Assembly (NCBI GenBank): GCA_017467445.1
Contig: JAFTSG010000012.1
Location: forward strand, 1-54,918
From: Clostridia bacterium
GTDB lineage: Bacteria; Bacillota; Clostridia; RUG12999
Direction of reading: 5' to 3'
DNA length: 54,918 bases
Shown here one piece after another: positions 4,828 through 53,184 of the stretch; positions within the stretch are counted from its first letter, which is position 1, and each line of letters begins with the position of its first letter. The position numbers were made by a program, and so were the translations under genes. The notes beneath the pieces are model-generated. The model saw nothing but the letters and a program-made list of their open reading frames with translations, made no database searches and was not told where the DNA came from.

Positions 4828-5487
4828 CTAATACAGAAAATATTCCCCGCTTTCATCTATTACGGCACACAGTGCACGAAATCTTTTTCCGTCAAGATTC
4901 ACATTATGTGAATATTCTTCAAGCTCTCCAAAAAGGTTTTCCTCATCAGACGCTTGCAAAATTGCAATTGCAATATGTATTCCGCCGTCCTTTTTCATCC
5001 CCAGAACATAATGTCCTCTGCGGGCTATGGCTCTTCTTACACTATCCAACGACAAAACATGCATAACAATTGAATATTTATACACCGAATAATATCCGTT
5101 TATTCTTTTCCATTTAAATCCGCCGCCAAAATAATTATCCCGGGTAAGCTCGTGAGGAAAAAACTCCGAAACCTCGTCGTCGGGATAAAGCAACTTTTCT
5201 GCCGTTTTCTTTGCGTTTTCTTTTCCTCCCCAGAATTCAATTTTTTCTCCTCTTGTTATTATTACACCACTTAAATTTTCCGGTTTTCTATACGCAAACT
5301 TTTCCCTTCCGCCCGTCATACTTCCTATACGACAAAGCTTGTCGTCCGCTATGACATACACCTCAAAAACCTCATTATCACCAAGCGGTTTATGATTTTT
5401 TATATCCACATCTGCAAAGCCTTTTTCAAGTTTAACGACTCCGCCTGCTCCCGTATCAGTGTTCAGTATATAACATTTTTTATTCAT
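4828..5487 (-). CDS. Conserved-looking protein of unknown function, cotranscribed with the amidase
   Basis: A 219-residue, apparently soluble protein; I do not recognise its family. It has no signal peptide or transmembrane helix. Visible traits are an N-terminal beta-rich part (YILNTDTGAGGVVKLEKG, FEVYVIADDKLCRIGSMTGG), a central aromatic stretch (FPHELTRDNYFGGGFKWKRI) and a C-terminal part with HVLSLDSVRRAIARRGHYVL. It lies 13 nt behind the CwlD-like amidase gene and ends at a strong terminator, so the two form a short operon, hinting at a cell-envelope or spore-related role. This is inferred only from position. Confidence 0.7.
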   Translation of the reverse strand: MNKKCYILNTDTGAGGVVKLEKGFADVDIKNHKPLGDNEVFEVYVIADDKLCRIGSMTGGREKFAYRKPENLSGVIITRGEKIEFWGGKENAKKTAEKLLYPDDEVSEFFPHELTRDNYFGGGFKWKRINGYYSVYKYSIVMHVLSLDSVRRAIARRGHYVLGMKKDGGIHIAIAILQASDEENLFGELEEYSHNVNLDGKRFRALCAVIDESGEYFLY

Positions 5488-5500
5488 ATTTCACGTCCTT

Positions 5501-6199
5501 TTAGCTGTAGTATTTTGTAATTCCATTAAATATCGCTCCTGCAAGCTTGTTCTGATATTCCTCGGTTTTAAGACGTGCCAAATCCTTTTCATTGGAAAGA
5601 AATCCACATTCCACAACCACAGACGGAATAGTTGTTTCACTTAGTATAAATATGTTTTTTGACCCGTCCTTTGCCACTCTTATATTATCAGGATCTTCCT
5701 TACACACCTCACTCTGAATATAATCTGCAAGCTGTTTTGACCCGCTCGAATTAGAATAAAACACCTGTGTGCCGAAATACTGCGGGTCAGAAAATGTATT
5801 CATATGTATACTCACAAATGCTTCCACATCATATTCGTCAATCATCTTTTTTCTGTTTGCCAGGTCGGCAACCTTACGCTGACGGTTTGCATCATCTTCA
5901 GGTGTGCTTAAGGATATGTCCTCCGTTCTTGTCATAAATACCGTACATCCGCTTTGTTCCAATAGCTTTTGAAGTTTAAGTGCCACTTCAAGATTAAGGT
6001 CTTTTTCGGCGGTATTATCCGTACCAATAGCCCCGCCGTCGGGTCCGCCGTGTCCTGCATCAATTATAATTACCCTGTTCGCCGTAGGCAGTGCCGACAC
6101 CTTATCCGTTCCTCCCCCAATACCCGAAACAAGTGCAACAGCCACAAGTGCTACCACCGCTACAATTGCTACTATTTTTCGTTTTATTACAATTACCAT
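5501..6199 (-). CDS. cwlD: N-acetylmuramoyl-L-alanine amidase, CwlD-like
   Basis: A 232-residue zinc amidase (Amidase_3) that cuts the bond between N-acetylmuramic acid and L-alanine in peptidoglycan; CwlD orthologues act in making muramic-delta-lactam of the spore cortex. An N-terminal membrane anchor/signal (IVAIVAVVALVAVALVSGIG) precedes the catalytic domain. Zinc and catalytic motifs are visible: IIDAGHGGPDGGAIG, a glutamate in AEKDLNLEVA, SIHMNTFSDP and the catalytic-Glu region VVVECGFLSNEKD. The frame is open to 6226, but AAAGGA at the proper distance supports the ATG at 6199. The presence of other sporulation genes supports CwlD over a vegetative amidase, but the family is broad. Confidence 0.8.
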   Translation of the reverse strand: MVIVIKRKIVAIVAVVALVAVALVSGIGGGTDKVSALPTANRVIIIDAGHGGPDGGAIGTDNTAEKDLNLEVALKLQKLLEQSGCTVFMTRTEDISLSTPEDDANRQRKVADLANRKKMIDEYDVEAFVSIHMNTFSDPQYFGTQVFYSNSSGSKQLADYIQSEVCKEDPDNIRVAKDGSKNIFILSETTIPSVVVECGFLSNEKDLARLKTEEYQNKLAGAIFNGITKYYS

Positions 6200-6315
6200 A
6201 CCACAGATTCCTTTCATTTTTTGCAAATAAGATATTAAATTTTATTCCAAAAAATGTGCAAATATGCCCTCATTCACGCATATTTACATATGTTTCGGGA
6301 TTTTGCCAAAAACCC

Positions 6316-6344
6316 TTGACATCCACAAGATATTGTGGTATAAT
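6316..6344 (+). promoter_or_regulatory. Consensus promoter of veg with a palindromic spacer
   Basis: TTGACA (6316-6321), a 17-nt spacer and TATAAT (6339-6344). The spacer holds the inverted repeat CCACAA-GATA-TTGTGG (6323-6338), which fills the gap between -35 and -10 and could be an operator. Confidence 0.8.
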
Positions 6345-6383
6345 ATTCATATAAAGACAAGATGTAGGTAGGAGTTGGTTCCA

Positions 6384-6635
6384 ATGGGTCACAAGTTAGA
6401 GTGCATTCGTGAAAGTCTTGAAAAGGAGATTGGTAACAAAGTTCGCGTAACTACCAAAGAGGGCCGCAAAAAAATTGTAGTCCGCCGAGGTGTTATCGAA
6501 AAGACATACCCAAGCCTGTTCGTTGTTCGTTTTGAAAACAGATCTGACAGCGAAGATTGTCGTACATCATTCAGCTACATAGACGTACTTACTCATAATA
6601 TTGAACTTGCAATTTACAAACCAACAACAGCTTAA
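6384..6635 (+). CDS. veg: Veg family protein
   Basis: An 83-residue small protein of the Veg family (DUF1021), typical of Firmicutes. In Bacillus subtilis veg is very strongly transcribed and the protein stimulates biofilm matrix genes by acting on SinR. Family motifs visible: KEGRKKIVVRRGVIEKTYPS and SFSYIDVLT. The ATG at 6384 is preceded by GGAG with 9-nt spacing, which is preferred over the TTG at 6375. The consensus promoter just upstream fits high expression. Confidence 0.88.
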   Translation: MGHKLECIRESLEKEIGNKVRVTTKEGRKKIVVRRGVIEKTYPSLFVVRFENRSDSEDCRTSFSYIDVLTHNIELAIYKPTTA

Positions 6636-6645
6636 GTCGAGTGCC

Positions 6646-6682
6646 GGCCGTGTGCATTTTTGCTCACGGCTTTACTTTATTT
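6646..6682 (+). terminator. Imperfect hairpin after veg
   Basis: GCCGTGTGC and GCTCACGGC form a 9-bp stem with one mismatch and a T-rich loop, followed by TTTACTTTATTTC. Probably a leaky terminator, allowing readthrough into comM, which has no clear promoter of its own. Confidence 0.55.
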
Positions 6683-6699
6683 CTTAGGAGATGACAACA

Positions 6700-7359
6700 A
6701 TGGTTTCTACAGTCAAAAGCCTTGGAATATGGGGAATTGACGGTTATATAATTGACGTTGAATGCAGTGTTATGCCGGGAATGCCGTCGTTTGACATTGT
6801 AGGTCTTCCCGATACCGCCGTTAAAGAATCAAAAGAACGTGTAGTGTCCGCCATAAAATATATGGGATTTGATTTCCCTCTTGGCAAGGTAACAATTAAC
6901 CTTGCACCAGGGAACATCAAAAAAGAAGGTTCAGGTTTTGACCTGCCTATAGCACTGTCAATTCTTATTGCCTCAGAGCGGATAAAAGTGGCTAATATTT
7001 CAAATACCGTCTTTGTAGGCGAACTTTCACTCAAAGGCGAACTTCGACCGGTAAACGGCGTTCTTCCAATGGTTATAGGCGCTCGAAAAGGTGGATTTGA
7101 AAATGTTGTTCTTCCGATCAAAAATGCAAAAGAAGCGTGTGTAGTAAAGGATATGAACATTTTTGAAGCACCATCTTTTTATGATGTTATTGCACATATA
7201 AGCACTCAGCAGGAATTAAATAAAGTTGCCGCTACCGAAGATATGTTTTCTACAGATAATATCTACAACTGTGATTTTGCTGACGTAAAAGGTCAGGAAA
7301 CCGTAAAACGCGGTCTTGAAATTGCCGCAGCCGGCGGTCATAACTGCCTTATAGTATGA
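6700..7359 (+). pseudogene. comM: comM/yifB (Mg-chelatase-like AAA+ ATPase), 5' part, cut by the element
   Basis: N-terminal part of a YifB/ComM family ATPase. In competent Gram-negative bacteria ComM is a hexameric helicase that helps branch migration of transforming DNA; the role in Firmicutes is less clear. Family landmarks: GIDGYIIDVECSV, MPSFDIVGLPDTAVKESKER, NLAPGNIKKEGSGFDLPIAL, FVGELSLKGELRPVNGVLP and VKGQETVKRGLEIAAAGGHN. The native frame stops at codon 7345-7347; the element then adds Leu-Ile-Val and a TGA at 7357. ATG 6700 has AGGAG at 9-nt spacing. Joined to the part starting at 12890 it gives one frame of about 509 residues, the normal family length. Alone, it lacks the ATPase core. 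Confidence 0.9.
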
Positions 7360-7374
7360 TACATATACACGGTT
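7333..7374 (+). repeat. attL of the comM element
   Basis: Left junction: comM sequence up to the crossover dinucleotide CT (7348-7349), then the attP half-site, TATAGT followed by the 16-bp arm ATACATATACACGGTT (7359-7374). The arm is the exact inverse of that at 12865-12880. Confidence 0.88.
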
Positions 7375-7492
7375 AATGTAAATGCCCATAAAATAAGGGG
7401 TTTGAGAGATGATATGCTTTTAAAAATAGCCTAAATTTTGACCTTTTAAAACACCTTATTTCTGACGGATATTTAAAATTACAATGTTTTTT

Positions 7493-7528
7493 GACACCTT
7501 GATTTTTAAATCAAAGGTGTTATTTTTT
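7493..7528 (+). terminator. Hairpin with T-run at the left end of the element
   Basis: ACACCTT and GATTT pair with AAATC and AAGGTGT (one bulged base), followed by ATTTTTT on the plus strand. It could stop transcription entering from the broken comM gene. Confidence 0.6.
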
Positions 7529-7649
7529 ACTTATAGAGACATTCATAAAATAACTTAACATATATAAGCACCTAATCTAACATATACATAATTATCTTGA
7601 GGGACAAAAACCTAATTTAAAGTAAATAAGAATAAAGGGGAGATTAATT

Positions 7650-7826
7650 ATGTATGGGTTAATAGGTATGCAAAAGTTAGGAAAAAGAAATATGTATATG
7701 GTTAGTAGATTAGGAACTAATGAGGTCAAATTACTTTCAAGAGAGGCTATAAAACCAATGTTGTTAAAGAATATGATTGTTAATGCAGTTTGGGATAATA
7801 AGGTAGTTATGACCTATGAAATATGA
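7650..7826 (+). CDS. 58-residue protein of unknown function
   Basis: A small basic protein; family not recognised. It begins with Met-Tyr-Gly-Leu and contains KLGKRNMYMVSRLGTNEVKL. Support for a real gene: AAGGGGAG sits 8 nt before the ATG at 7650, and a strong terminator (7835-7866) follows the TGA at once. It is the only plus-strand gene at the left end of the element and converges with the integrase gene. Size and place would suit a recombination directionality factor, but no sequence feature shows this. Confidence 0.6.
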   Translation: MYGLIGMQKLGKRNMYMVSRLGTNEVKLLSREAIKPMLLKNMIVNAVWDNKVVMTYEI

Positions 7827-7834
7827 TTTAAAAC

Positions 7835-7866
7835 AATAAAGGACACCATTGCTGGTGTCCTTTATT
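7835..7866. terminator. Bidirectional terminator between the 58-residue gene and the integrase gene
   Basis: Perfect 14-bp inverted repeat (AATAAAGGACACCA with TGGTGTCCTTTATT) around TTGC, with A/T runs on both sides, between two convergent genes. Confidence 0.88.
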
Positions 7867-7870
7867 GATG

Positions 7871-8524
7871 TTATGAAAGCATTGATAAATACCTATTATT
7901 TAGTTTTTCAACATAGTTCTTAATTTGAGTCATTACACTTATTTTTTCAAGACCTAAATCAGGGTTAAAGCCCATTACAGCAGAAAATGTATCATTGTTT
8001 TCTATTGCTTCTTCTATCAAATTATTATCTTCAATAACATTCAGCAGAAAAGGTAATCTAACATTTCTATGTATTTCAGGTTTAACCTTTCTCTGTGCTG
8101 CTCTTATTTCATCATAGAGCATATTTTCAGTATCAAAAACACATTCTGAATTATCATCAGTAGAGTTAAAGTCAGGTAATCTATTTATAAGTGTGACAGT
8201 AGGAAGAGTAATTTTACATTCTTCCAATACTTCTAATGAGTGCTGTGTATCTTTGAGAATGGGTATTAAAACAGTTTTAGGTGGTATTCCACCTTTTGAA
8301 TTGACTGTTTCTCCTGCAACAATAATTTTATCTAATAAATTAAGTACTTCATCAGGCTTATATTTTTTCTTAATACTATCACATAAATTGATTTCCTTAT
8401 ATATACATTCAAAGATTTTATCAATTCTTTCCTTGATTTCAACAGGCAGAAGTGTAAGTTGCTTTGCCTTTTCTTTTAGGTCATTAATTCTATTTTGAAT
8501 ACTTGCAATTTCTTGGTACTTATC
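7871..8524 (-). pseudogene. C-terminal continuation of the element integrase, beyond the in-frame TAG
   Basis: Directly after the TAG at 8527-8525 the same frame stays open for 217 codons to the stop at 7871. The first part reads DKYQEIASIQNRINDLKEKA, a heptad-like coiled coil that continues the helix cut by the TAG. Further on is KPDEVLNLLDKIIVAGETVN, the type of C-terminal helix usual in large serine recombinases, then about 120 residues ending in YVEKLNNRYLSMLS. No Shine-Dalgarno or good start lies near the TAG, so this part is made only by readthrough, by suppression, or not at all. The stretch keeps protein-like codon use, so the stop is recent or tolerated. Confidence 0.8.
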
Positions 8525-9994
8525 CTATTTTTCTTCTTCACTAAACTTAACATATTTCATCATACCAATTAAGTTCTCACGTGCTGTTTCCTGATTCTCT
8601 ATTTCAGCCTTGATTTGTTTTATTTCTGCTGATTCATACATTGTTGGATTTTCAAGTAATGAAATATATTGCTCTAATACTGTAATAAGATTAGTTAGGA
8701 TGATTTCAAAATCATTTCTTATCAGCCATTGTAAATCACCTTCACATAATTGTTTTATCCAATTATTAAGTTTAGTTTTATATAAGTTATTGCAATTACA
8801 AACAGATGCTCCTTCAGACGCTTTTGTAGAACATTTGAAAAAACCAGAACCACCATTATTATCATACCTAAAAGTATTGTGACAATATCTACATTCTAAT
8901 ATATTCTTAAAACTGTGTGTAGGGATTCTTTTACCTTTTACATTATTATTTTCTTTACCACAACATTGTCTTTTCTTGATAGCTTCTTGTGCTGCATAGA
9001 ACTTTTCAGGTGGTATTAGCATAGGAATATCCTCAGTTTCAAGTAACTCATAATTTTCATTAACAACACTATATGAGAACTTTTGTGAGAGTAAAATCGA
9101 GCCTGTTGTGTATTTATTTGGTGTATTTACTCCCATATATTTTTCATTTTTCCAAATATTACGAATTGTGCTATGAGGATATGGTTGTGGTGGACCATCA
9201 TAGTCTTCGTCTTGAGGAGCATAGTAACCCTCTGAAAAGAGAATTTTACTTGTTTCTTTAGCACCATAATCAATACATAAGTCAAACATCCTTATAATGG
9301 CAGGTCCATGCACAGGATGTATGGTGTAATACGCCTTTCTCTTTTTTGTTACAGGATGATATTCATAGCCTGTTAGTTTTCCAGATACAATGTTTTCTTC
9401 TCCACGAAGTTCATTATATAATGCCATATCTCTACTTCTTGTTTCTGAAAAGGCTCTATCTTTCGCCAAGTGTGTTCTTATAGCATCCATATCACTTGGA
9501 TTTGCTGTTGATTTATCAATATCAATGAAATAGACAGTTACGCCTGCTTTCTTTAAATCTTCAAGTAATCCTTCCGCATTTGCTGTATTCCTACCGAATC
9601 GCGATGTGCTTTTTATCCAGATTTCTGTGAATTGCTTCTTCTCACTTTTCTTCTTATTAACGTGAGTAACAAGTTTTTTCTGCTTTAAGTATTCATTTTT
9701 ATACTTTTTATCAGGATGTGGTATATTCTCATAATCAATAAACTCAACATCAAGACCAGCATCTTCTAACATTCTTACAAAGTCTTTTCTGTTATAACTT
9801 GTACCACTCACACCATAATCTTTATAACCAGCAACAATTTTATATTCAACATTAGGATTTTCTCTTTGCTTTTTTGAAATTACAGACTGAAAGTACTTAG
9901 GCTGTTTCAAGAAAGAACTGATTTGAGCTTCCTTTTTCGTGGATACGCGCCAATATAGACAGATATATATAATAGTTTTCTTTACTTTACTCAT
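8525..9994 (-). CDS. Large serine recombinase (element integrase), ends at an in-frame TAG
   Basis: A 489-residue product; 707 residues if the TAG is read through. It integrates and excises the element by a phosphoserine mechanism. Domains: N-terminal resolvase domain with the nucleophile in YWRVSTKKEAQ (Ser18) and the active-site arginine region KSTSRFGRNTAN; a Recombinase domain (SGKLTGYEYHP to YMGVNTPNKY, about 205-300); and a zinc ribbon with Cys pairs in LECRYCHNTF and FFKCSTKASEGASVC (about 370-400). The coiled coil that begins near IKQIKAEIENQE is cut by the TAG. Since coiled coils in this family control synapsis and direction, the short form may be inactive or altered. AAGGGGG precedes the ATG, with a sigma-A promoter at 10045-10073. 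Confidence 0.9.
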   Translation of the reverse strand: MSKVKKTIIYICLYWRVSTKKEAQISSFLKQPKYFQSVISKKQRENPNVEYKIVAGYKDYGVSGTSYNRKDFVRMLEDAGLDVEFIDYENIPHPDKKYKNEYLKQKKLVTHVNKKKSEKKQFTEIWIKSTSRFGRNTANAEGLLEDLKKAGVTVYFIDIDKSTANPSDMDAIRTHLAKDRAFSETRSRDMALYNELRGEENIVSGKLTGYEYHPVTKKRKAYYTIHPVHGPAIIRMFDLCIDYGAKETSKILFSEGYYAPQDEDYDGPPQPYPHSTIRNIWKNEKYMGVNTPNKYTTGSILLSQKFSYSVVNENYELLETEDIPMLIPPEKFYAAQEAIKKRQCCGKENNNVKGKRIPTHSFKNILECRYCHNTFRYDNNGGSGFFKCSTKASEGASVCNCNNLYKTKLNNWIKQLCEGDLQWLIRNDFEIILTNLITVLEQYISLLENPTMYESAEIKQIKAEIENQETARENLIGMMKYVKFSEEEK

Positions 9995-10044
9995 TATATT
10001 CCCCCTTAATTTTAAGATATAGTTATCCCATTGTAGGGTTTAAA

Positions 10045-10073
10045 ATTATAACTCTTCTTTTGATATTTGCCAA
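10045..10073 (-). promoter_or_regulatory. Promoter of the element integrase
   Basis: On the minus strand TTGGCA (10073-10068), 17-nt spacer, TATAAT (10050-10045), about 50 nt before the integrase ATG. Confidence 0.65.
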
Positions 10074-10108
10074 GACATTTGACCTGTTTTCAGAAGAATG
10101 CCCAGCAG

Positions 10109-10138
10109 AAACATATACAATTTTATGCTTCTGCTGAA
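10109..10138. repeat. Hairpin upstream of the integrase promoter
   Basis: AGCAGAA-a-CATA and TATG-c-TTCTGCT form an 11-bp interrupted inverted repeat. It lies between the integrase promoter and the end of the 72-residue minus-strand ORF and could be an operator or an RNA hairpin. Confidence 0.45.
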
Positions 10139-10145
10139 AGTAGAG

Positions 10146-10364
10146 TTATATTTTGGGTTTAACATAGTAGAGTCTTGTCCCACATATTGATGCATTAGAT
10201 ATTTCATTGATATGTAGTTTAACCCAACTAAAATCTACTTTTTCTTCTGAATTGTCAGTCAAATTAACTGCAACATAATAATTATTTCTATGAAATCCAG
10301 TCTTTTCTCTTATAAAAACAGTCTTTCCATGAGGAAATGATTGCATTATCATTAGAAATTGCAA
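10146..10364 (-). CDS. Possible small protein of unknown function
   Basis: A 72-residue ORF (66 from the internal Met at 10346). It is not recognised; the sequence reads like a protein (FHRNNYYVAVNLTDNSEEKV, WVKLHINEI), with no signal peptide or membrane segment. No convincing Shine-Dalgarno precedes any of the three possible Met codons, and the 5' end overlaps, head to head, the start of the plus-strand 171-residue ORF. Either this ORF or the first codons of that one may be misassigned. Confidence 0.4.
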   Translation of the reverse strand: MQFLMIMQSFPHGKTVFIREKTGFHRNNYYVAVNLTDNSEEKVDFSWVKLHINEISNASICGTRLYYVKPKI

Positions 10365-10852
10365 ATAAGTTTGATGAAATTTATGAAAATAAAGAAACTT
10401 CTTCTTATATAGAGAAAAAGATAGATTGCTCTTGTAAGAATAGAAATAAAATGTTGGGTATAATAGACTTCTTTAATCGTCATATGCAAATCATAGAAAA
10501 TAAATTTGAGATTTATAAATCTTCTTCTGCTGATAGTTCAAATGATAAAAAGATTTGTAAATTGGATGTTTTAAAATTACAGTTGGAACTGTCTAAACAA
10601 AAGGGTTTCTATTTGATGTTTAAGGAAAAGAGTAAAATTGTAGTTCAGGAAGATTTGTTAATAGTTTTTGCTCAAGTGGTTCAGGAATTAAATAAAAAGA
10701 GAGATTTTGTGGTTAATGTTATGCATCTGCTTAAAGGGTTGAAAGAATTTTCGCAATTAGATTATGTTACAAATATGGAAGAACAAATAATTGCCTCCTG
10801 CTATTCTTTGTTATATGAGGAATTGTTAAATATATCGTTGATATGTGAGTAG
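10337..10852 (+). CDS. 171-residue protein of unknown function (element gene)
   Basis: A helical, lysine- and glutamate-rich cytoplasmic protein, family unknown. A run of predicted helices is visible (EIANKFDEIYENKETSSYIE, LDVLKLQLELSKQKGF, VVQELNKKRDFVVNVMHLLK). GAGG lies too close (2 nt) to the ATG at 10337 for good initiation, so the start is uncertain. The gene ends in TAG, which shows that TAG serves as a normal stop in this very element. It is followed 8 nt later by the 69-residue HTH-like gene, so they are probably cotranscribed. Confidence 0.65.
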   Translation: MIALSLEIANKFDEIYENKETSSYIEKKIDCSCKNRNKMLGIIDFFNRHMQIIENKFEIYKSSSADSSNDKKICKLDVLKLQLELSKQKGFYLMFKEKSKIVVQEDLLIVFAQVVQELNKKRDFVVNVMHLLKGLKEFSQLDYVTNMEEQIIASCYSLLYEELLNISLICE

Positions 10853-10860
10853 GTGGTATT

Positions 10861-11070
10861 ATGGAAAATACTAAAAAGCAGCAGATAATAGACTTATTCT
10901 TATTGGGTTATTCAAAAGGTATTATTTCTGAAATGGTGGATACAAGTGAAGGCTATGTAGGAAAGATTGTATCTATCTATTTGAAGGAAAAAGGAATTAA
11001 ATTGCAATCAGAATCAATGATAACTAAACAAAAAATCAAGTTTTATCTTAATTCAGGTATAGGTGAATAA
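10861..11070 (+). CDS. Small helix-turn-helix-like protein
   Basis: 69 residues. The segment IIDLFLLGYSKGIISEMVDTS followed by EGYVGKIVSIYLKEKGIKL has the spacing of a homeodomain-like helix-turn-helix (a first helix ending in GYS, a turn, and a recognition helix from SEGYVGKIV), as in small phage or transposon repressors and excisionases. It lies directly behind the 171-residue gene and before a strong terminator. It is a candidate regulator or excisionase for the element; this is inference from size, fold and position. Confidence 0.65.
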   Translation: MENTKKQQIIDLFLLGYSKGIISEMVDTSEGYVGKIVSIYLKEKGIKLQSESMITKQKIKFYLNSGIGE

Positions 11071-11089
11071 TGATAAGTCAAAATTATTT

Positions 11090-11125
11090 GGAATGACAAT
11101 GAGAATTGTCATTCCATTTTTTTAT
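11090..11125 (+). terminator. Intrinsic terminator after the HTH-like gene
   Basis: Perfect 10-bp stem GGAATGACAA / TTGTCATTCC with a 6-nt loop, then ATTTTTTTA. Most of the stem (GAATGACA) recurs at about 11200, before the next operon. Confidence 0.9.
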
Positions 11126-11238
11126 TTAGGCATGTGTCATTGAGAGCAGCTACAGAAAAACAAACAGTTTTAAAGGACAACTACATCAAAATATTTTAGA
11201 ATGACATAAAAAAATAATTTAAAGGAAACAGAACCTTT

Positions 11239-11514
11239 ATGGGTTGTGGTATGTTTAAGAAAAACAGGGTTGTTGGAAGAATAGAAGATGTCCTCCCTGA
11301 AACACTTAAACTTTATGATTTTTCCTTTGCTGACTTCCATTATCCTTATATGGTAAATGGCAAAGAGGAATCTTCTGACAATATTTATGATGTTTATGAA
11401 AAAGCATATAAATTTGGTAAGTTTTTTGAGGTTTTAGAATCTCGTATGATGTATAGCAGTCAACAAAAGCGCATAATTAGAAAGTTGCAAAGGTTAGGTG
11501 AAAAGAATGGGTAA
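11239..11514 (+). CDS. 91-residue protein of unknown function, first gene of the cargo operon
   Basis: A small soluble protein; family not recognised. Motifs: IEDVLPETLKLYDFSFADFH, EKAYKFGKFFEVLESRMM and a basic C-terminus QQKRIIRKLQRLGEKNG. AAAGGA lies 12 nt before the ATG at 11239; the Met at 11251 is an alternative start. The stop overlaps the start of the next gene by 8 nt, so translation is coupled. With the two following genes it forms the only multi-gene operon in the element. Confidence 0.65.
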   Translation: MGCGMFKKNRVVGRIEDVLPETLKLYDFSFADFHYPYMVNGKEESSDNIYDVYEKAYKFGKFFEVLESRMMYSSQQKRIIRKLQRLGEKNG

Positions 11515-11938
11515 GATTATTTTTATGACAGAACAGGATATAGAAAGAAAATATAACAGTCTTGTTGAAAGATTAAGTAATTCAACTGATAACATAGAAC
11601 TTAAAGGACTTAAATTGGAAGGTTTGTATGAAATATTTAAGGCAATAAATAGTTATCTGTATCAGGGATTTGATGCTTTGCTTGTTATGGGTATTCTTGA
11701 TAAAAAGTTTGAAAACTTGACTAATTCACATAATGAAGAAGAAGTCAATGAAGCAGTTAAATTAAGCACATGCCATTTCACAGAAAAAGGTGTTGAGGTT
11801 AATAAATGTCATATTCCTGCAGAAGAATTGATATTGCTGCAAATTGCAAGTAATATGCATCCACTCAACCAAAGGGCACAGAAAAGGTACAGACACTTAT
11901 ATAGACAATGCTTTGGAAGTAGATTGGTGGTGTCATAA
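11507..11938 (+). CDS. 143-residue protein of unknown function, second gene of the cargo operon
   Basis: A soluble, mainly helical protein, not recognised. It contains MTEQDIERKYNSLVERL, LKLEGLYEIFKAINSYL and a basic C-terminal patch NQRAQKRYRHLYRQC that could bind nucleic acid. The frame opens at a GTG at 11498, but AGGTG at 6-nt spacing favours the ATG at 11507, which overlaps the upstream gene's TAA region. The stop TAA shares a base with the ATG of the next gene. Function unknown. Confidence 0.65.
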   Translation: MGKIIFMTEQDIERKYNSLVERLSNSTDNIELKGLKLEGLYEIFKAINSYLYQGFDALLVMGILDKKFENLTNSHNEEEVNEAVKLSTCHFTEKGVEVNKCHIPAEELILLQIASNMHPLNQRAQKRYRHLYRQCFGSRLVVS

Positions 11939-12543
11939 TGGCACAGGAAGAAAAGGATATGTATTTTGTTTCAATTAGAAATCCTCAATTGCCTTTACAA
12001 TCAGGATATGAAGAGTATATAGCAACAGCAGAAGATTTTAAGAAATACTGTAATGAAGTATTTGAATTAGACAACAATAATGAATTGGACGATTTTCTTC
12101 TTTCTTCATATTTAAGGGCAAAGGTTAAAGTGGAGGTTATACAAGAAACATATAATGAGGATAGAACAATTGAAGGTTTTAGGAGAATTGTAGAAACTTC
12201 AAAAGGGTCAATAAAAGTTGCTTATACTGCGTATAGGGAGAATCGTGTTTATGTTAGAGCAGGAAATGTATATTTGAGGGGTTATAGAGTGTTCTTTTCA
12301 AATCTGTGTACTGATAATAGTGATGGATTTGAACCATTGAATAAACTTGATAATGGTGGAAATATTGAGGTATTACAATGGAATACAAGACCTTGTAGAA
12401 GAGGTATTCAATACATAAATAATAAACTTCAAAATATTCTTTTTATAATTGATGCAGTATATAAAAGCAAAAAACAAATGGAGTATGATATAAACCATCC
12501 TAAACCTATCAATTTAGAAAAGTTCATAATTGCCTTGTTATAA
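11938..12543 (+). CDS. 201-residue protein of unknown function, last gene of the cargo operon
   Basis: A soluble alpha/beta protein with no recognised family. Visible pieces: YEEYIATAEDFKKYCNEVF, a strand-rich centre (GSIKVAYTAYRENRVYVRAG, VYLRGYRVFFSNLC), and WNTRPCRRGIQYINNKLQNI. ATG at 11938 overlaps the previous stop (TAATG), a strong sign of coupled synthesis and perhaps of a complex. A perfect terminator follows 2 nt after its stop. No metal site, Walker motif or membrane helix is visible. Confidence 0.65.
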   Translation: MAQEEKDMYFVSIRNPQLPLQSGYEEYIATAEDFKKYCNEVFELDNNNELDDFLLSSYLRAKVKVEVIQETYNEDRTIEGFRRIVETSKGSIKVAYTAYRENRVYVRAGNVYLRGYRVFFSNLCTDNSDGFEPLNKLDNGGNIEVLQWNTRPCRRGIQYINNKLQNILFIIDAVYKSKKQMEYDINHPKPINLEKFIIALL

Positions 12544-12547
12544 ACAA

Positions 12548-12577
12548 AAAAAAGAACGGGATTTCCCGTTCTTTTTT
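12548..12577 (+). terminator. Intrinsic terminator of the cargo operon
   Basis: Perfect 13-bp inverted repeat (AAAAAAGAACGGG with CCCGTTCTTTTTT) around ATTT. Confidence 0.92.
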
Positions 12578-12651
12578 ATATACAGATTGATATATTATAC
12601 CATATTGAATGTAAAAAATCAATACAAAAATCAACTATTTTTGGTTTTCTA

Positions 12652-12680
12652 TTGCAAAATTGATATCAAGGTGCTATAAT
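12652..12680 (+). promoter_or_regulatory. Outward-facing promoter at the right end of the element
   Basis: TTGCAA (12652-12657), a 17-nt spacer and TATAAT (12675-12680), reading toward the 3' half of comM. It is followed by AAAGGACGGG and an ATG at 12743. Confidence 0.7.
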
Positions 12681-12742
12681 ATAAAGATGAAAAAGTATGA
12701 TGTATTGAGGGTTGAAAGCTGAATAGAGAAAGGACGGGTATA

Positions 12743-13771
12743 ATGATAAAAGTAAATAAAAAATTAAAATATCCGTCAGTAGTGGTCTTGTTTTGTAGTA
12801 AAAATCATATGATTTTTACATTATGTATAAATAGAAAAAAGCCTTGTAATCATAAGAAAACAACAACCGTGTATATGTATTCAACTATACTTATGATAGG
12901 TACACCCGGTTCGGGTAAATCAATGCTTGCAAGCAGGCTTCCCACCATACTCCCCGACCTCACATTCGAAGAAGCTCTTGAAGTTACAAAAATACATTCA
13001 ATTGCCGGACTTTTAAATGAAGAAAAAGCGTTTATCAATACTCGTCCGTTCCGCACACCGCATCATTCCACATCAACAATAAGTCTTGCGGGCGGTGGAA
13101 GAGTTCCAAAACCAGGCGAGGTCAGCCTTGCACATAACGGAGTTCTGTTCCTTGACGAATTTCCCGAATTCAATAAATCAGCACTTGAAATACTGCGTCA
13201 GCCTATTGAAGACAGAACTGTCACAATTTCAAGGGTAAATGCAACAATAACATATCCGTCGGACTTTATGCTTATTGCCGCAATGAACCCTTGTCCGTGC
13301 GGATATTTCGGCGATAAAAAACATCATTGTACCTGTACAACTGCACAGATACATAAATATACAAGCAAAATCAGCGGACCTATTTTAGACAGAATTGATT
13401 TGCATATTTTTGTTGAACCTGTAGAATATTCACAGCTGACAAGCAATGAAAAAGCGGAAAGCTCCGCCGAAATCAAAAAACGCGTTAACAAAGCACGTAA
13501 AATTCAGGTGGAAAGGTATAAAGAACTTGGTATTTATTCCAATGCAAGCCTTGATTCTCAGGATTTAAATACCTATTGTAAGCTTGATGACACTGCAAAG
13601 AAAATTCTCGAATCAGCATTCACAAAGCTTGGACTTTCGGCAAGAGCATATACAAGAATTGTAAAAGTGGCAAGAACAATCGCCGACCTTGCCGGCGAAG
13701 AAAATATAAGCTTTGAACACATTTCCGAAGCAATTCAGTTCCGTACACTCGACAGACAAATATTCGGATAA
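12743..13771 (+). pseudogene. comM: comM/yifB 3' part: AAA+ ATPase core with an element-encoded N-terminus
   Basis: The frame starts in element DNA (about 49 foreign residues from an ATG with AAAGGACGGG upstream) and crosses attR at 12890 into comM. From there: Walker A IGTPGSGKSMLASRLP, RTPFRTPHHSTST-type segment (RPFRTPHHSTSTISLAGGG), Walker B VLFLDEFPEF, sensor 1 LIAAMNPCPCGYFG, the cysteine-containing HHCTCT loop, and the C-terminal region LSARAYTRIVKVARTIADLA. All motifs of an Mg-chelatase-like ATPase are intact from Walker A onward. Because promoter, ribosome site and start are present, a chimeric ATPase lacking the N-terminal domain could be made; whether it is functional is unknown. 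The native protein needs excision of the element. Confidence 0.88.
12865..12905 (+). repeat. attR of the comM element
   Basis: Right junction: 16-bp arm AACCGTGTATATGTAT (12865-12880), ACTATA (12884-12889), crossover CT (12890-12891), then comM sequence TATGATAGGTACACC. Confidence 0.88.
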
Positions 13772-39068: not shown

Positions 39069-40427
39069 ATGGCCAAGAACATTCTAAATGCAGAAGTTGA
39101 TGCCCTGGCTAAATTGTGTACCGAAAACAGTAATATCGACCCCGCGCTTTACATTGAGCATAAAGTAAACCGCGGACTTCGCGATATAAACGGCAAAGGA
39201 GTTTTAACAGGCCTTACCGAAATTTCCGAAATTCAGTCATCAAAAATGGTTGACGGAGAGCAGATTTCCTGCGAAGGTGAGCTGTTTTACAGAGGAATAA
39301 ATATAGAAGACATTGTAAACGGTTTTGTAGGGGAAAACCGATTCGGGTTTGAAGAAACAGTCTATCTTCTTTTGTTCGGCAACCTGCCGACCAAAGATGA
39401 GCTTTCAAACTTCAAAGCCCTGCTTTCTCATTACAGAAGCACTCTTCCCTCTTCGTTCGTAAGGGATGTTATTATGAAAGCACCCAGCACGGATATGATG
39501 AACACACTTTCCCGAAGCGTGCTTACACTCTACCCTTACGATGACAAGGCAAATCAGGGTGATGTTCCCAATGTGCTTCGTCAATGTCTGCAGCTTATTG
39601 CTCTTTTCCCAATGCTTGCGGTATACGGGTATCAGGCATACGAATATTACCATCAGAAAAACAGTTTCTTTATACATACCCCACTTCCCGAGCTTTCCAC
39701 GTCGGAAAACATTCTGTATATGCTCCGTCCGGACTCTAAATATACCGAGCTTGAATCAAAAATACTTGACCTTGCACTTGTGCTTCACGCAGAACATGGC
39801 GGCGGAAACAACTCAACATTTACAACCCATGTTGTAACCTCTTCGGGAACAGATGTATACTCGGTTATAGCCGCGGCGCTCGGTTCACTTAAAGGACCAA
39901 AACACGGCGGTGCAAATATAAAAGTTGTCCAGATGTTTGACGATATGAAGAAAAACGTATCCAACTGGACAGATGAAAAAGAGGTTGGCGAATATCTTCG
40001 GGGGCTTCTTAATAAACAGGCGTTTGATGGTGCTGGTCTTATCTACGGAATGGGCCACGCGGTATATTCACTTTCCGACCCGAGAGCAAATATTTTCAAA
40101 CGATTTGTTGAAAGCCTTTCCAAAGAAAAAGGAAAGACAAAAGAATACGAGCTTTACGCTCTTGTTGAACGTCTTGCACCGGAAATAATCGGCCAGGAAC
40201 GAAAAACCTATAAAGGCGTAAGCGCAAATATAGATTTCTACAGCGGATTTGTTTATGATATGCTTGACCTCCCGAAAGAACTCTATACACCAATTTTTGC
40301 AATGTCAAGAATTGCAGGTTGGAGCGCACATCTTATAGAAGAAAAAATAAACGCAGGTAAAATTATAAGGCCGGCATATATGAATGTTCAGCCTAGAAGA
40401 AAATATACACCAATAAACAACAGATAG
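39069..40427 (+). CDS. Citrate synthase
   Basis: 452 residues; condenses oxaloacetate and acetyl-CoA. Catalytic histidines and neighbours are visible: LVLHAEHGGGNNSTFTTHVV, LGSLKGPKHGGANIKVV, MGHAVYSLSDPRA and the catalytic Asp region in SANIDFYSGFVYDML. The extra N-terminal segment of about 60 residues and total length suit the longer Clostridial type. The gene ends in TAG, a normal stop here. It is cotranscribed with dnaX-ybaB and guaB; in a fermenting anaerobe it would support glutamate synthesis through a partial TCA path. Confidence 0.92.
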   Translation: MAKNILNAEVDALAKLCTENSNIDPALYIEHKVNRGLRDINGKGVLTGLTEISEIQSSKMVDGEQISCEGELFYRGINIEDIVNGFVGENRFGFEETVYLLLFGNLPTKDELSNFKALLSHYRSTLPSSFVRDVIMKAPSTDMMNTLSRSVLTLYPYDDKANQGDVPNVLRQCLQLIALFPMLAVYGYQAYEYYHQKNSFFIHTPLPELSTSENILYMLRPDSKYTELESKILDLALVLHAEHGGGNNSTFTTHVVTSSGTDVYSVIAAALGSLKGPKHGGANIKVVQMFDDMKKNVSNWTDEKEVGEYLRGLLNKQAFDGAGLIYGMGHAVYSLSDPRANIFKRFVESLSKEKGKTKEYELYALVERLAPEIIGQERKTYKGVSANIDFYSGFVYDMLDLPKELYTPIFAMSRIAGWSAHLIEEKINAGKIIRPAYMNVQPRRKYTPINNR

Positions 40428-51368: not shown

Positions 51369-53123
51369 TCAACATGTATCGGACAACTGAAACGAAGGCA
51401 ATAATTTCGCTAATTTTTCACGTGTTTCATTTGCAAAAGAAGGCAAATTCATAAACTCTTTCGCCCTTCCATTTTTACGTTCCGGTTTATGGTTTTCACT
51501 GTTAATTTCATTGGTAAATCCGGTCTTGTAAATGAAGGTTAGCATCTTGGGGTCTGGATTACCTTCTTCATCGTATCCGCCTACAATAACTTTATCGACA
51601 ATGCTTTCGAATACACATCTGTCAAAAACTTCAAGAACTTCGTGTTCGCTGATAACTTTTCTGAAGTTGTTAAGTCGAGTCTTTATTTTCTTCGTCCTTT
51701 CGGCAGAATTTAAAAACTCAAATTTTTCATTGTTAAACTTTTCAAGTTTACCTGTAACATCAGCTAATTTCTTCTCGTAAGTTTCTTTATCAATAACATC
51801 CTCAAGGTGCATATCCAACAGTTTTTCCTTCTTTTTCTCAAGTGCATAAATCTGTTTATCCAAACGAGCAATCTCTTTAGAATTATCCGTTGAACATAAA
51901 GTTGATTCTATTCTTTCAAGCATTTCCGCAAGGACATCGCTATTATTATAACATAAAAGTTTATAACTTTCAAGGAAAGCATTTTCTAAGGTTGTTTCTT
52001 GTATTGCTTTTGAGTGCATACAATCTTTTTTACCCATACGAATTGCGGTTATACATTGCCAAATTATTTTATGATAATTTGAACCTGCGTGCCAACTTCT
52101 TCTTGAGTATCCGCTTCCACAGAACCCGCATTCAAGCATAGAACTAAAGGCATATTTTCTACTATATTTTTCTCTTGTTCCATTTGGTTGAAATCTGTTT
52201 GCAGCCCTTTTCATTCTTATCTGCTGTGCAGCTTCAAAATCTTCAGCACTAATAATGGGTTCGTGATGCTCACTCATATAAAATTGGTCTTCTTCGCCAA
52301 AATTGTCAAGTCTTCGTTTTGATATGGGGTCAACAGTAAAAGTTTTACCTTGGCGAATGTCGCCTTTATACTTTTCATTTTTTATAATACCCATAACAGT
52401 GGTGTCACACCACTTATCATAACCTCTTGGGGTTTTGTATCCAAGCTCTCCTAACTCTCTTGCAATTATACCACAACCCATCCCGCCAAGATAGCGGTCA
52501 AATATGTATCTTACAATTTCCGCTTCTTTTTCATTGACGGATATGGACTTTGTTTCCGGATTATAGTCATACCCAAGACAACCTTGGAATCCGACAAGTT
52601 CTCCACGTTGCATTTTCATTTTAAGACCCTTTTTTACATTCGCTGAAATGTTCTCAACTTCCTGCTGTGCAACTGAACTTAATATTACAAGTAAAAGTTC
52701 TCCATCCATTGTCAGAGTATTTATATTTTCTTCTTCAAAAAAGACAGCAACATTTTTTCCTTTTAAGAGTCGTACATATTTCAAAGTATCCAATGTATTT
52801 CTTGCAAATCTTGAAATGGATTTTGTGACAACCATATCAATTTCACCGTTCATAGCATCGTTAATCATTCTTTGAAAATCTTCACGCTTTGTTGTTTGCG
52901 TTCCAGTGATTGCTTCATCAGCATAAATCCCGGCAAAAACCCAATCGTGGTTTTGGTTTATGTAGTCAGTGTAGTGTTTAACCTGTGACTTATAGCTGTT
53001 TAATTGGTCTTCGCTGTCAGTGCTTACACGACAGTAAGCCGCAACTCTAAGTCTGTCAATTTTTTTTGAAAAATTCCTGTTTACTAATGTGGTATTAGCC
53101 TTGATAACTTCAACATTTTTCAT
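51369..53123 (-). CDS. Large serine recombinase (TnpX-like site-specific recombinase)
   Basis: 584 residues, all family domains present. Resolvase domain with the nucleophile in LRVAAYCRVSTDSEDQ (Ser34) and arginine region KSISRFARNTLDTL; Recombinase domain from GFQGCLGYDYNPETK to GIIKNEKYKGDI; zinc ribbon with LECGFCGSGYSRRSW and IWQCITAIRMGKKDCMH; a long coiled coil (EIARLDKQIYALEKKKEKL to LADVTGKLEKFNNEK). AGGAG at 8-nt spacing favours the ATG at 53123 over a GTG at 53129. It lies at the element edge, as usual for an integrase, and unlike the comM-element enzyme it is uninterrupted. Confidence 0.92.
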   Translation of the reverse strand: MKNVEVIKANTTLVNRNFSKKIDRLRVAAYCRVSTDSEDQLNSYKSQVKHYTDYINQNHDWVFAGIYADEAITGTQTTKREDFQRMINDAMNGEIDMVVTKSISRFARNTLDTLKYVRLLKGKNVAVFFEEENINTLTMDGELLLVILSSVAQQEVENISANVKKGLKMKMQRGELVGFQGCLGYDYNPETKSISVNEKEAEIVRYIFDRYLGGMGCGIIARELGELGYKTPRGYDKWCDTTVMGIIKNEKYKGDIRQGKTFTVDPISKRRLDNFGEEDQFYMSEHHEPIISAEDFEAAQQIRMKRAANRFQPNGTREKYSRKYAFSSMLECGFCGSGYSRRSWHAGSNYHKIIWQCITAIRMGKKDCMHSKAIQETTLENAFLESYKLLCYNNSDVLAEMLERIESTLCSTDNSKEIARLDKQIYALEKKKEKLLDMHLEDVIDKETYEKKLADVTGKLEKFNNEKFEFLNSAERTKKIKTRLNNFRKVISEHEVLEVFDRCVFESIVDKVIVGGYDEEGNPDPKMLTFIYKTGFTNEINSENHKPERKNGRAKEFMNLPSFANETREKLAKLLPSFQLSDTC

Positions 53124-53184
53124 AAGCACATCTCCTTTTTGTATTCCTATTATAGTTTTACTCTACCGCGCTTTAAAAAATAAA

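Follow-up and report, generated by a model that had tools for sequence, protein, structure and literature searches.

An in-frame TAG in the large serine integrase of a small element inserted in comM of a Clostridia bacterium

Results

The element and its insertion site

The DNA analysed here (the window) is a stretch of 54,918 nt, contig JAFTSG010000012.1, from the MAG of an uncultured gut Clostridia bacterium that is 61% complete and consists of 16 contigs. It carries an element of 5,542 bp which is inserted precisely inside comM/yifB (Table 1). Joining the flanks at a shared CTTAT gives a 512-codon ComM frame reading GGHNCLMIGTPGSGK. The exact empty site was found in a genome of the same genus (G001), whose intact comM (L084) has 96% amino acid identity; a blastn search of the window against L084 returned 5194-7349 and 12890-13738 as directly adjoining matches that overlap by 2 bp, CT. 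The comM gene is also intact in all eight other family genomes. Among the inverted repeats of the element, the longest (30 nt, 83%) has its arms adjoining a CT on either side, as would be expected for attP half-sites, and as the empty-site junction and the position of these arms beside the CT both define the ends, we set the bounds of the element at 7348-12889.

Near copies of the attB left half with its core, GGTCATAACTGCCTTAT, occur inside the element at 7798-7814 on the minus strand (16/17) and at 12522-12538 on the plus strand (14/17), while 0.07 matches to this sequence are expected in the whole window. They are possibly internal attB-like sites; similarity to the P arm is absent beside the copy at 7798-7814.

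Besides the integrase the element holds a few small ORFs. A possible terminator hairpin (7834-7867) lies between the 58-aa ORF and the end of the integrase. None of the five ORFs between 10337 and 12543 had an accepted match in PHROGs, NCBIfam or PADLOC, and the four that were scanned against Pfam had none there. No recognised phage, conjugation or defence genes were found in the 5.5-kb element, and no RDF was identified.

Table 1. Features of the element and of the comM gene that it interrupts (positions in the window)
Feature	Positions	Strand	Basis
Disrupted comM/yifB, N-terminal part	6691..7359	+	Pfam ChlI 3.4e-46
Integrated element, 5,542 bp, in comM/yifB	7348..12889	.	restored ComM frame; blastn against L084
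P' arm of attL, next to core CT 7348-7349	7350..7379	+	30-nt inverted repeat
58-aa ORF, convergent with the integrase	7650..7826	+	translation
Large serine recombinase (integrase) frame, interrupted at codon 490	7871..9994	-	PF00239, PF07508, PHROG 95; catalytic residues
217 open codons: second coiled-coil helix, zinc-domain closing strands 554-560 and 575-580, low-confidence C-terminal tail	7874..8524	-	homologue profile, model
In-frame TAG, near the start of the second coiled-coil hairpin helix	8525..8527	-	sequence; AlphaFold helices
171-aa ORF, no known family, ends in TAG	10337..10852	+	database scans
69-aa ORF, no known family in PHROGs, NCBIfam or PADLOC	10861..11070	+	database scans
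Three ORFs (91, 146 and 201 aa), no known family	11239..12543	+	database scans
Disrupted comM/yifB, C-terminal part (native from 12890)	12743..13771	+	Pfam Mg_chelatase 1.5e-84
P arm of attR, next to core CT 12890-12891	12860..12889	+	30-nt inverted repeat

The integrase frame continues across the TAG

The integrase frame comprises 708 codons and closes with a TAA at 7871. Codon 490 is a TAG, preceded by AAA and followed by GAT, with 489 codons 5' of it and 217 open codons 3' of it. The 217-codon tail has a coding score of 0.605 bits per dicodon in the integrase frame, against -1.6 and -3.1 bits per dicodon in the other two frames of the same strand, which are non-coding values. In its codon statistics it matches the front part, it bears no further decay, and with this composition a run of 217 open codons would arise by chance with a probability of about 2e-10. 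No ATG, GTG or TTG occurs in the tail before codon 99, which leaves it without a start close to the TAG. A scan of the genome for same-frame ORF pairs, each of at least 100 codons and split by a single stop, gave 93 pairs, among which the integrase is the extreme case as the sole pair without a start codon for 99 codons; the next-longest start-free runs were 53, 47 and 33 codons. Most of the other in-frame-stop candidates that it yielded proved to be genuine ends of genes or antisense artefacts and were discarded.

The protein is a large serine recombinase of the A118/SPbeta/phiC31 kind. It matches PF00239 (3.1e-13) and the recombinase domain PF07508 (1.5e-7) in Pfam along with PHROG 95, integrase (2.7e-40), and all catalytic positions that we checked are present (R16, S18, Q24, Q31, R69, R132 and R135). 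The zinc ribbon cysteines C368, C371, C388 and C399 are invariant in our alignment (A4), and both these ligands and the catalytic residues lie upstream of the stop. Identity to the aligned homologues is 22-25%, and no relative with a long match at more than about 30% identity was found in genome_contigs, IMG/VR, the phage and plasmid sets or the genus, family, class and phylum genome sets. A second large serine recombinase, uninterrupted and of another branch, is encoded elsewhere in the window (51372-53129, minus strand).

A profile built from 20 homologues scored 135.5 bits for the first 489 residues and 153.5 bits for the whole integrase, the match crossing the TAG column in register and reaching residue 561. 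The tail alone beat 500 shuffles of itself in profile score, by a narrow margin, and its match to the homologues extends to the closing strand DKIIVAG...IPPKTVLI. Various residues (E, N, K, Q, D, A and others) occupy the TAG column itself, and a stop was found there in none of about 40 aligned homologues. Two relatives from viral contigs, L111 and L114, which have a shorter form of the roughly 40-residue insert in the catalytic domain of this integrase, are open at the TAG column. No copy of the exact pattern around the TAG was found in IMG/VR.

For structure prediction with AlphaFold the TAG was read as glutamine, an arbitrary residue. The modelled coiled-coil hairpin consists of helices 456-481 and 486-514, with the TAG in the second helix, and the closing strands of the zinc domain are placed downstream of it. 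In the model both the hairpin and these strands are complete only if the TAG is read through, and would be incomplete in the 489-residue product. The confidence of the model is moderate (mean pLDDT 68.6, pTM 0.36), the last 110 residues being largely unreliable; the best Foldseek matches were the SPbeta, phiC31 and Bxb1 integrases. These results bear out the original prediction that a serine integrase of a mobile element is cut within its coiled coil by a TAG with 489 codons before it and 217 after it, the rest following in frame, and that homologues would have sense codons rather than natural ends at this place. The usual C-terminal helix that was also predicted did not hold up as well, as the tail after residue ~597 is of low confidence in the model.

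TAG is an ordinary stop codon in this genome

TAG terminates 85 of the 658 long ORFs (13%), and the sequence 3' of these terminal TAGs is on average non-coding. Citrate synthase (39069-40427) stops with TAG where the second citrate synthase of the genome stops with TAA, and in the element itself a TAG closes the 171-aa gene, 8 bases ahead of the next gene. As first proposed from the same two genes, general recoding of TAG is unlikely, and we reject it on this stop usage; the avoidance of TAG that would be expected of a UAG-recoded system is not seen.

Readthrough confined to the integrase was also considered. Leaky readthrough or suppression of UAG would yield a short and a long integrase, and their ratio might tune integration versus excision. 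The stop does sit in the directionality-setting part of the protein, ahead of a tail that is intact and homologous, and the apparent purifying selection on comM described below would look as if the element were often excised. We know of no readthrough hexamer that matches the sequence at the integrase TAG, and the base after it is a G. The structure 3' of the stop is nothing unusual (z 0.18), no RNA families were found, and neither a CUA tRNA nor a PylS/PylRS-like protein was detected in the 61%-complete genome. RF1 was likewise not found in this incomplete genome, probably through its incompleteness, and the release-factor match that is present (C2:99921-100955, L222) is RF2, carrying the SPF motif; RF2 seen without RF1 would suit readthrough or suppression. 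The absence of a stop from the TAG column in the relatives aligned, the missing stable structure and the 13% of long ORFs that end in TAG with non-coding sequence beyond them argue against both. Programmed readthrough is not supported, as neither a 3' stimulatory structure nor a stop conserved in relatives was found. We regard leaky readthrough or suppression as very unlikely, and likewise its more specific form, in which partial readthrough gives truncated and full-length integrase in a ratio that decides whether the element stays in comM or exits.

Other in-frame stops and the possibility of an error

In-frame stops of this kind number three in about 1.05 Mb of the MAG. In polA (G000:C2:20911, L076) a TAA lies between the 5' nuclease and polymerase parts, at a position that is open in seven family genomes. 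The third (G000:C13:112925, L220) is a TAG that splits a 1,405-codon ORF with a transposase-like gene beside it. A distant homologue has no stop at this position, and the split ORF looks like a remnant.

Because single-base stops occur outside the element too, as in polA, a consensus or assembly error, or a collapsed minority strain variant, is a live alternative for the integrase, in which case the real gene would be intact. The genome is an uncultured MAG with the completeness and contig number given above, and the undamaged tail with codon statistics equal to those of the front part is what an error would leave. On the other hand, three such stops in about 1.05 Mb indicate that errors are rare, one of these three resembles a remnant ORF, and mobile elements are the expected place of real pseudogenes. 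The searches gave no other copy of the element by which a fixed TAG could be told from an error. On balance we hold an error to be unlikely, though well worth keeping in mind.

Timing of the insertion and of the stop

Both halves of comM are free of lesions and show a dN/dS of 0.03-0.04 against G001, comparable to the 0.03-0.19 of neighbouring intact genes. The dS of comM is about 0.4-0.75, and a long period as a pseudogene is unlikely because at such dS the dN would well exceed 0.02. From these comparisons it seems that the disruption of comM is recent, or that excision regularly gives back the intact gene. Without an active integrase the element could not have inserted, so the TAG is probably younger than the insertion, and we infer that it most likely arose after it.

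Discussion

Our preferred reading, to which we assign a probability of roughly 0.7, is that the large serine integrase gene carries one nonsense codon, a recent inactivating allele that strands the element in comM. The element would have inserted into comM through a normal attP x attB recombination, crossing over at CT, carried out by a working integrase, and the TAG would have been acquired afterwards. Ribosomes would then halt at codon 490 and release a protein of 489 residues. In this protein the catalytic and recombinase domains and the zinc-binding cysteines would be retained, and the second helix of the coiled coil, the strands that close the zinc domain and the tail would be missing. 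Such a protein would probably be unable to synapse sites normally, and the element would be stranded and comM disrupted unless integrase were supplied in trans. Two observations speak against inactivation: the tail shows no decay, and an element that is still excising would be equally compatible with the low dN/dS of comM.

LI integrase without its coiled coil has about 2% activity in both directions in a single-molecule assay and retains intramolecular recombination in vivo, while phiC31 integrase without it is inactive (PMC10754689, PMC5814800). According to the model the stop in the present integrase removes more than these published deletions, namely the second coiled-coil helix together with the closing strands of the zinc domain. 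As the published deletions cripple the enzymes and the stop removes more, loss of function of the 489-residue form is likely. The partial activity of LI integrase in both directions, along with the catalytic residues and zinc-ligand cysteines upstream of the stop, could suggest instead that the 489-residue form is a working, direction-relaxed recombinase that has been selected as such. The loss of the closing zinc strands leaves a lone coiled-coil helix, unlike in the clean deletions that were tested, and full-length homologues extend beyond the TAG column; we find this the least probable explanation of all. A short form that behaves differently, as had been suggested, is accordingly not favoured, and of the three options raised at the outset an inactivating mutation fits best, whereas leaky readthrough and suppression fared poorly, with no structure after the stop and no CUA tRNA or PylS in the 61%-complete genome.

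If the stop is real, this integrative element would have lost its integrase a short time ago and would now be stranded within a gene of its host, which makes it a dated example of how mobile elements decay and not a new mechanism. Only if readthrough were true, so that the directionality of the integrase was tied to translation termination, would the case change ideas. Taken as a whole, the observation is confirmed yet ordinary: the integrase allele of a small LSR element, sitting in a gene that is often targeted, bears a nonsense codon.

AbaR islands insert by a Tn7-like transposition system and not by a serine integrase. They disrupt comM in Acinetobacter (PMC7508600), and here comM is likewise disrupted by a mobile island. 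Among serine recombinases, the magnesium chelatase gene comM/yifB is the target of 12.4% of predicted site-specific LSRs (PMC10083194), and the sr1WO prophages of Wolbachia insert in the magnesium chelatase gene (PMC9203015). The insertion site is ordinary since this is a known LSR target gene, interrupted in the present genome by an LSR element as in those cases, although the element is small at 5.5 kb and lacks recognised phage, conjugation or defence genes. With the integrases of SPbeta (YokA, 9dxh), A118/LI (4kis), phiC31 and Bxb1 the protein shares the catalytic, recombinase and zinc-ribbon domains with a coiled-coil hairpin, and as in those four systems the P arms are inverted repeats flanking a 2-bp crossover core. 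It differs from all four in the insert of about 40 residues in the catalytic domain, in a longer C-terminal tail and in the in-frame TAG.
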